Source: Lentisphaeria bacterium
Lineage (GTDB): Bacteria > Verrucomicrobiota > Lentisphaeria > Victivallales > UBA1829
Length of the DNA: 49,310 nucleotides
Assembly: GCA_017963105.1 (NCBI GenBank)
Contig: JAGCTY010000011.1
Coordinates: forward strand, 1-49,310
Direction: 5' to 3'
The notes under the pieces were generated by a model, which saw only the letters and a program-made list of their open reading frames with translations, searched no databases and was not told the DNA's origin. The first letter of the stretch is position 1, and the number at the start of each line of letters is the position of its first letter. The position numbers and the translations under genes are program-made. Shown piece after piece: positions 36,404-48,804 of the stretch.

Positions 36404-36480
36404 TGGTGCACCCGGCGGGGCTCGAACCCACCACCTACTGCTCCGGAGGCAGTCGCTCTATCCAAATGAGCTACGGGTGC
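36404..36480 (-). tRNA. tRNA-Arg (anticodon CCG)
   Basis: 77 nt on the minus strand. GCACCCG pairs with CGGGTGC, discriminator A and CCA encoded. The D-arm is GCTC/GAGC, the anticodon loop is CTCCGGA (anticodon CCG) between ACTGC and GCAGT, and the T-arm is GTGGG-TTCGAGC-CCCGC. The cloverleaf is complete. Confidence 0.95.
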
Positions 36481-47021: not shown

Positions 47022-47098
47022 GCTCCGGTAGCTCAGCTGGATAGAGCATCTGCCTTCTAAGCAGAGGGTCGTGGGTTCGAGTCCCGCCCGGAGCACCA
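47022..47098 (+). tRNA. tRNA-Arg (anticodon UCU)
   Basis: 77 nt. GCTCCGG pairs with CCGGAGC; ACCA is encoded. The D-arm is GCTC/GAGC, the anticodon stem TCTGC/GCAGA encloses CTTCTAA (anticodon TCT), and the T-arm is GTGGG-TTCGAGT-CCCGC. Its 3' end borders the right-hand island and is the probable attachment site. Confidence 0.96.
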
Positions 47099-47166
47099 CT
47101 TTTTTGTCCTGATTTGAGGCTAAAAAGGGTAGATTTGACAGAAAAAGAAATTTCCTGATTTTTCTT

Positions 47167-47383
47167 GATTCGTGACACGAATCGTGGAAAAATCGTGGAA
47201 AAATCGTGGAAAACTTTTGAGCTCAGATAAACCGCCTCTATGCTCACCCCCTAATGCAAGACCGTGGAAAACCATGCCCCCTGTGGGATGCCGTCGCGCC
47301 ATGACAGGGGGAATCCATCCGGTTTGATAACAGACGCGAAAAACACGGGGTTTGACCCCTGTTTTCCACGATTTTTCCACGAT
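47167..47383. repeat. Opposed arrays of an 11-bp iteron with a 17-bp palindrome, next to tRNA-Arg(UCU)
   Basis: GATTCGTG-A-CACGAATC (47167-47183) is a perfect palindrome. It runs into three gapless copies of ATCGTGGAAAA (47181-47191, 47192-47202, 47203-47213). One near copy (CCGTGGAAAAC) is at 47262-47272. Two gapless inverted copies (TTTTCCACGAT) are at 47362-47372 and 47373-47383. A hairpin with 8-bp arms (CCCCCTGT/ACAGGGGG, 47277-47311) lies between the arrays. The layout fits integrase or excisionase arm sites beside an attachment site, or an origin of replication or transfer of the element. Confidence 0.8.
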
Positions 47384-47564
47384 TTGAGCTTACAAGCTAC
47401 ATTCTGGCTGCTTTTGCTGAGGTGGAATGTCCTTTGCGCAGACAAAGGCGAAAGGTTCCCGGTCCTGTGTCGCCCTCGAATATGTTCCCCTGGGGTCCCA
47501 TCAAACTTTTTTTCGACTTTTTTCTCTTTTTGACTTTAAACTGACACTAGATGGCAACTTGGTG

Positions 47565-47622: not shown

Positions 47623-48804
47623 ATGAACGAATCGGAAAACAGACTGGAAAACGGACTGGAAAAAGATGGGCGTCTGGTCATAGAGGGCATCAAAGCGGGC
47701 CAAAAATCCGGGGCTATTGACTGTTGGGACCTTATCTTTTCGCTGGATCAGGCCCATGAGAACGGCGAATACGAACGGCCGGACTCTTTTCTTTGCCAGC
47801 ACCCTGATTTCGCCGACTCGATACAGGGCGGGGAAGACTATATTCAGTATACATTGGCGAAAGCAAGGACCGCATATACCCTTTGGAATAAAATTTATAT
47901 GGCGGCAACAGACGCCAAGAACCAAGTCGGGCTGGATGAGATGATGGAATGGGGCAAGGCGTTTGCATTTTATTACTCGGAATTCCGAATTGCCCTCGAA
48001 AACCAAAAGAACTATCTCAGCTGTCATCTCCCGGCATTGGCGAAGCTCAAAGAATTGAAAGCCGAACAGGAAAGGGCAGAACCGCCCCCGACCCATGAAA
48101 TATTATCCGAAATGAAAAGACTTGGAGAATTATGGATGTCTTCGATGTCCGAACTTCAGAAAGCAAACCATGCGGCTTTAATAGCTTTAGATCAGAAACG
48201 CAAGGAAATGGAGGTCCCCATTTCCAAAGCGGCAAGTATTATAGCTGAAGAAGCAGAAGAATTAGAAATACAGAAATATTGCAAAAGAGGGGCTTATACT
48301 TCATTGTCCGCCAATGAGAGAAATATAAAAAACTGGGAAGCGAAGCGGAATCCATGCCCGTGGCCGGGTGGTTTCCCGTCTCGATGGCAGCCGGAAAAAG
48401 ATTTCAGGATTTATGTTCGCCGTGGCTTAAAAGGATACCTTGACCAAATTCGGATAAAAAGACGGAAAAGGGAAGAGAAAAAAATGAGAGAGAATCTGGG
48501 CGTTGATGACCCGGATCATTTTAATGGTATTTCCATAGACAACCCACCAGAAAGATACAAGGCAATAATAGAGCGAGCACTGATAGACCCCCACATAGAT
48601 AAAGACTTGTATCCAACGTTTGCTTATTTCGATGAAGAGGAAGAAGATTATTATGATGAAGCGTTTTATGATAAGCTATATCAGGAAATTGACAGGATTA
48701 ATAAAGAGTTCGGGATCGAAGAAGATGACGATGAAGAGTTCGACGATGATGATGAATTTGACGATGACGAGCTTGATGACGACGAGTTAGACGATGATGA
48801 ATGA
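47623..48804 (+). CDS. Hypothetical island protein with an Asp/Glu-rich C-terminal tail
   Basis: 393 aa, not recognised. AAGGAGAT stands eight bases before the ATG, and a terminator follows, so it is a real single-gene unit. The N-terminal two-thirds is helical and charged; KARTAYTLWNKIYMAATDAK and NQKNYLSCHLPALAKLKELK suggest long helices. The middle (about 235-285) is basic with a Trp/Pro segment NPCPWPGGFPSRWQPEKD, then KRRKREEKKMRE. The last 60 or so residues are almost wholly acidic, ending in repeated EFDDDD and ELDDDE blocks (EFDDDDEFDDDELDDDELDD). Such tails mimic nucleic acid or chelate metal and are seen in anti-restriction and DNA-mimic proteins, but no function can be assigned. 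It lies between the iteron region and an excisionase-like gene. Confidence 0.8.
   Translation: MNESENRLENGLEKDGRLVIEGIKAGQKSGAIDCWDLIFSLDQAHENGEYERPDSFLCQHPDFADSIQGGEDYIQYTLAKARTAYTLWNKIYMAATDAKNQVGLDEMMEWGKAFAFYYSEFRIALENQKNYLSCHLPALAKLKELKAEQERAEPPPTHEILSEMKRLGELWMSSMSELQKANHAALIALDQKRKEMEVPISKAASIIAEEAEELEIQKYCKRGAYTSLSANERNIKNWEAKRNPCPWPGGFPSRWQPEKDFRIYVRRGLKGYLDQIRIKRRKREEKKMRENLGVDDPDHFNGISIDNPPERYKAIIERALIDPHIDKDLYPTFAYFDEEEEDYYDEAFYDKLYQEIDRINKEFGIEEDDDEEFDDDDEFDDDELDDDELDDDE

Follow-up and report, generated by a model that had tools for sequence, protein, structure and literature searches.

The arm sites of lambda attP lie on both sides of the core and are bound by the small N-terminal domain of Int, and in Tn916 the arm repeats are tandem and 11 bp long. 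In the attP of the Cluster K mycobacteriophages CrimD and Pixie pairs of 11-bp arm-type sites flank a tRNA/tmRNA core; in CrimD the two pairs are mutually inverted with a stem-loop between the core and a pair, and within Cluster K the differences in the word track changes of the integrase N-terminus (PMC3203893). A tRNA core surrounded by direct repeats, which vary along with the integrase N-terminus, is also described for the Oenococcus IntF/IntB prophages (PMC8074189). Integrase arm-site arrays beside tRNA genes are therefore a kind already known, and what is new in the present case is the lineage; a limited literature search found no description of this lineage, of its breadth, or of its integrase domain swaps.

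The sequence analysed here (the window, 49,310 nucleotides) is an entire contig of a Lentisphaeria bacterium, which stops 2.2 kb past a tRNA-Arg(UCU) gene, within an HTH_17 gene. The repeat features are located 69-285 bp beyond the 3' end of this tRNA (Table 1), the sole Rfam match at a meaningful score over the region. The layout reported by the initial annotation, with three direct, two inverted, and one near copy of ATCGTGGAAAA and a 17-bp palindrome, was borne out, and its remark that this is more ordered than background agrees with 2000 dinucleotide-preserving shuffles of the region, none of which equalled the observed layout: the longest period-11 run is 23 against a shuffle maximum of 9, and the longest inverted repeat is 25 bp against a maximum of 18. 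Throughout the 49 kb, period-11 runs of 12 or more are found in arrays A and B and nowhere else.

Table 1. Features of the tRNA-Arg(UCU) locus and neighbouring genes (window coordinates).
Feature	Position	Strand	Remarks
tRNA-Arg(CCG), other Arg tRNA of the window	36404-36480		without such an array
tRNA-Arg(UCU), integration target, CCA encoded	47022-47098	+	ARAGORN, Rfam
Presumptive attL core, anticodon arm to CCA	47051-47098	+	by comparison with the far-end duplication of related islands
Accessory motif TTGAGGC	47114-47120	+	adjoins core
Palindrome GATTCGTGACACGAATC	47167-47183		17 bp: 8-bp arms and one central base; overlaps first putative arm site
Array A, three tandem putative arm-type sites ATCGTGGAAAA	47181-47213	+	exact at 47181, 47192, 47203
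Inverted arms	47190-47214 / 47361-47385		25 bp, 100% complementary
Accessory motif TTGAGCT	47217-47223	+	right after array A
Lone degenerate putative arm site ACCGTGGAAAA	47261-47271	+	1 mismatch to ATCGTGGAAAA
Hairpin	arms 47274-47284 / 47304-47314		local
Array B, two tandem putative arm-type sites ATCGTGGAAAA	47362-47383	-	exact at 47362, 47373; inverted relative to A
Accessory motif TTGAGCT	47384-47390	+	right after array B
393-aa island ORF, acidic (Asp/Glu-rich) tail	47623-48804	+	no family match
HTH_17 protein, excisionase-like, cut by contig end	49037-49310	+	PF12728 E 3.7e-6; phrog_2907 excisionase E 3e-5

Judged from sequence comparison, the repeats are very probably arm-type sites of a tyrosine integrase at the attL of a mobile island inserted in tRNA-Arg(UCU). 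The composition beyond the tRNA is foreign, with GC dropping from about 0.60 to 0.42, and empty sites exist elsewhere, as the tRNA-Pro genes without an island in two related genomes (L231, L232) carry no arrays. Because the contig stops 2.2 kb into the island, the far end and the integrase are missing from the window; in the organism's own draft genome (3.0 Mb, 187 contigs) no duplication of the core was seen, and the search for the attR and integrase of this island returned nothing usable. In the same draft the 22-bp dimer of ATCGTGGAAAA, allowing up to 3 mismatches, is confined to the locus (3 overlapping matches; reversed-pattern control 0). The 2.2 kb of island present contain no replication initiator gene. 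The 393-aa ORF, without match in Pfam, PHROGs, or PADLOC, has a relative only at the equivalent site (L012) in the G007 genome, the rumen Lentisphaerae genome RUG555, which is the closest named relative, and the truncated HTH_17 protein is a candidate directionality factor.

Comparison within the genus covered 13 genomes, mostly drafts, and stretches taken from them. A layout like that of the window adjoins tRNA genes for Arg (UCU, CCU, CCG, ACG), Pro, His, and Thr and a tRNA with anticodon CAT: the CCA end is followed by about 70-85 bp, 2-4 direct 11-mers (array A), about 150 bp, and usually two further 11-mers (array B). The position of array A past the tRNA is shared with many attL of the genus, and array B, which has the inverted orientation in most families but the direct one in ATCGTGAAAAA islands, is kept in the attL of the ATCGTGG, ATTACGG, and ATCCCCT families. 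The words differ by family (ATCGTGGAAAA, ATCGTGAAAAA, ATTACGGAAAA, and ATCCCCTAAAA). L013, L019, and L021 have a copy resembling ACCGTGGAAAA between A and B that is missing from other relatives, and the palindrome is partially conserved; since the hairpin and the palindrome are kept in only part of the relatives, no functional role is claimed for them. Exact ATCGTGG dimers are found at island ends in 25 of 25 cases in the 13 genomes, either near the tRNA 3' end (A, B) or, as array C, with a tyrosine-integrase gene on one side and a duplicated tRNA half on the other, so that the random scatter proposed by the initial annotation as grounds for refutation is seen neither here nor in the window's own genome, where the dimer occupies one place.

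Some further arrays of the genus deserve description in their own right. The sequence between CCA and array A is of two types, TTTGTCCT..GAGG.. and a stem-loop ATCACCAT..ATGGTGAT, whose combinations with the words vary, and the window and L013 have a common island with different types of this sequence. Islands at tRNA-Ala and tRNA-Val (L089, G002 C21; L096, G007 C41) contain ATTACGGAAAA near the tRNA, whereas their inner array is built from another word, ACATACG, repeated about every 10 bp, as though each array had its own reader protein. One array lies without a tRNA or integrase nearby (L097, G008 C6) and another adjoins a broken tRNA 3' end (L145, G007 C52); both are probably remnants of decayed islands.

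The far end is preserved in relatives. In three islands that are complete on a single contig, both ends bear the same word and a tyrosine integrase lies at attR: a 13.8-kb island in G002 C35 (L019), where 54 exact bases of the tRNA 3' half are duplicated, to 6 past CCA; a 24-kb island in G010 C1 (L014/L015) with a diverged copy of the tRNA 3' half; and an 8-kb island at tRNA-Thr in G006 C73. The duplication from anticodon arm to CCA is seen at other attR as well. The order at attR is the tyrosine integrase gene (PF00589, E 3.9e-21), two direct 11-mers of the same word (array C; L019 has a single-base difference in one copy), about 40 bp, and the tRNA half. Relatives with the exact ATCGTGGAAAA word carry it to either side of the core, including the far island end, which is where the initial annotation advised looking for it, and the association with the integrase gene and the duplicated tRNA half upholds its arm-site idea. 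In four further cases attL and attR lie on separate contigs and agree in word and tRNA (G008 C61/C48, G011 C25/C2, G002 C22/C10, G005 C153/C29), each pair presumably belonging to one island. We infer from these relatives that the missing half of the window island is of the same organization. L051, L052, and L059 represent islands stacked in one tRNA gene, where an island passes at its far end into the array of a neighbouring island that has another word.

A profile built from 15 integrases detected related integrases in 43 of the 137 genomes sampled from the order. A tandem of about 11 bp is located between the gene and the tRNA 3' half in 17 of the 23 unique integrases with an upstream tRNA half, against a mean of 0.24 and a maximum of 3/23 in any of 200 shuffle rounds, and 14 of these 17 tandems lie 38-41 bp from the anticodon end; an imperfect tandem was recognized by eye in five more (L056, L079, L164, L165, L180). 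The tandem words are integrase-specific order-wide. The attR words of other families in the order are rich in T, for example TGCCACATTTC and TTTAGAACATT, and look inverted when set beside those of the genus.

The relation of word and tRNA to the integrase domains was most evident among six closely related integrases. Here the N-terminal 66 residues (N-domain) are 71-86% identical in pairs with the same word and 29-53% identical in pairs with different words, and the core-binding domain is most alike in pairs at the same tRNA (84%, 73%), with the exception of L048, whose core-binding domain is 74% identical with proteins at another tRNA. Two pairs appear to be domain swaps: L059/L052, both at tRNA-Pro, with 39% identity in the N-domain and 84% in the core-binding domain, and L050/L053, both at tRNA-Arg(CCU), with 45% and 73%, respectively. 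Along L059/L052 the identity is 92% in the tRNA-Pro half, 45-54% over a segment that begins shortly before the start codon and includes the N-domain, and mostly 70-89% from about codon 75 on, as if the array and the N-domain had been exchanged together. Exhaustive relabelling of the six proteins ranked the observed words 1/60 (best) for the N-domain, 22/60 for the core-binding domain, and 4/60 for the catalytic domain, and the observed tRNAs 4/180 for the core-binding domain and 152/180 for the N-domain. In order-wide Mantel tests (n=20) the tRNA correlates with the core-binding domain only, and the word correlates with all three domains (partial r 0.16, p 0.013 for the N-domain; 0.25, p 0.005 for the catalytic domain), without singling out the N-domain. 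Since the word tracks all domains order-wide, it is on the close comparisons that the proposed recognition of the 11-bp word by the integrase N-domain rests.

The integrase profile matches Tn1549 Int (best PDB profile hit) and lambda Int. In a predicted model of the viral relative L214 (mean pLDDT 77) the full-length fold matches lambda Int 1z1b and Tn1549 Int; its N-terminus is predicted as two strands and a helix, and a fold search with this isolated N-domain, from a distant relative, gave no significant match. Neither the island DNA nor the integrase has a close relative among phage records.

According to these data, the excised circle would run from the integrase gene to pair C, then after about 40 bp to the core, about 80 bp later to array A, and after about 150 bp more to array B. 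The integrase would hold the 11-bp words with its small N-terminal domain and cut the tRNA sequence with its core-binding and catalytic domains, so that arm and core would be joined in an intasome of the kind known from lambda or Tn916. Such binding, bridging, and activity of the integrase on the arrays are proposed from sequence features, namely the identity of the word at both ends, the fixed spacing, the tRNA duplication, and the way in which, among relatives, the word varies with the N-domain and the tRNA with the core-binding domain.

Another constant component of these sites is the motif TTGAG[CG][TC], with a density of 7.2/kb in 16 attL regions versus 0.39/kb in the window background. 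Its typical positions are after CCA, after A, and after B, and in attR a TTGAG-like sequence often precedes the anticodon by about 13-20 bp. The motif is unchanged where the 11-mer varies, and at a guess it could be the site of a shared directionality factor.

The words may nevertheless have other readers. The islands encode HTH_17 excisionase-like proteins, and wHTH factors are able to occupy DNA at roughly one protein per turn (PMC11963761), so the 11-mers could be boxes for an excisionase or directionality factor, such as the HTH_17 protein of the window, which would coat tandem repeats cooperatively; this is unlikely, given that pairs occur on both sides of the core and beside the integrase gene, that the word tracks the integrase N-domain in close relatives, and that a shared factor would more plausibly read the constant TTGAG motif. 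The repeats could also be operators for transcription of integrase or island genes, since array C closely precedes the integrase gene and integrase bound there could repress it as well. However, A and B keep the word at about 8-24 kb from the integrase in complete islands, and it is the distance to the core that is constant, whereas that to the gene ranges over 70-250 bp, which renders the operator explanation extremely improbable.

The initial annotation had alternatively suggested an origin for the excised element, that is, replication iterons bound by its own initiator or by DnaA. The layout is iteron-like, TTTTCCACG resembles a DnaA box, and primase-helicase, PolA, and clamp genes are present on islands, but the word varies with the integrase and among the islands of one genus (ATCGTGG, ATCGTGA, ATTACGG, ATCCCCT), a change that DnaA would not allow, and for this reason DnaA is disfavoured as reader. 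Moreover, the arrays lie on both sides of the integration core, which the pairs flank at fixed spacing, and the same word is accompanied by different neighbouring genes in the window, L014, and L019. The origin suggestion thus found no support and is regarded as very unlikely.

With the repeats taken as putative integrase arm-type sites, the locus shares with CrimD and Pixie the paired 11-bp sites by a tRNA core, the inverted pairs seen in CrimD, the stem-loop, and the tracking of word and N-terminus, but belongs to another host phylum and to replication-gene islands instead of tailed phages, and has the extra inner array B and a large diversity of words and tRNAs. The Oenococcus prophages are alike in direct repeats round a tRNA core co-varying with the integrase N-terminus, whereas their repeat is about 10 bp, they are Gram-positive phages, and their words are fewer. 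Lambda is similar in the arm sites flanking the core and in the full-length fold, and differs from the tRNA target and 11-bp tandem words seen here. With Tn916 and Tn1549 the core-binding and catalytic domains are shared, Tn1549 Int being among the best fold matches, whereas the present islands target tRNA genes with a long identity block, and their N-domains are weakly similar to Pfam arm-binding models (sub-cut-off matches only, best E 0.0056 and 0.04). This kinship is seen in the integrase; the matches obtained for the scanned genes of L014, L015, L019, and L211 were to replication, nuclease, and cargo functions.

Regarding this gene content, the L014/L015, L019, and L211 islands encode a primase-helicase, PolA, a beta-clamp-like protein, and a PDDEXK nuclease, with a dynamin-like GTPase (weak LeoBC match) and a patatin-like phospholipase as cargo; the L019 island also encodes a reverse transcriptase. 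No capsid gene was recognized among the scanned genes of these islands.

Tentatively, these elements may constitute an undescribed order-wide lineage of integrative replicons with a modular integrase, in which an exchangeable N-domain and its 11-bp word would form a private arm code, the core-binding domain would supply an independent tRNA address, and TTGAG would serve a shared accessory factor. If the integrase is indeed modular, several islands could occupy one tRNA gene in tandem with no cross-reaction between them. Arm words and tRNA targets can be read for dozens of related integrases, and together with the two apparent swaps these represent an unusually clean natural data set, and thus the recognition code of arm binding and the independence of stacked islands become directly testable.
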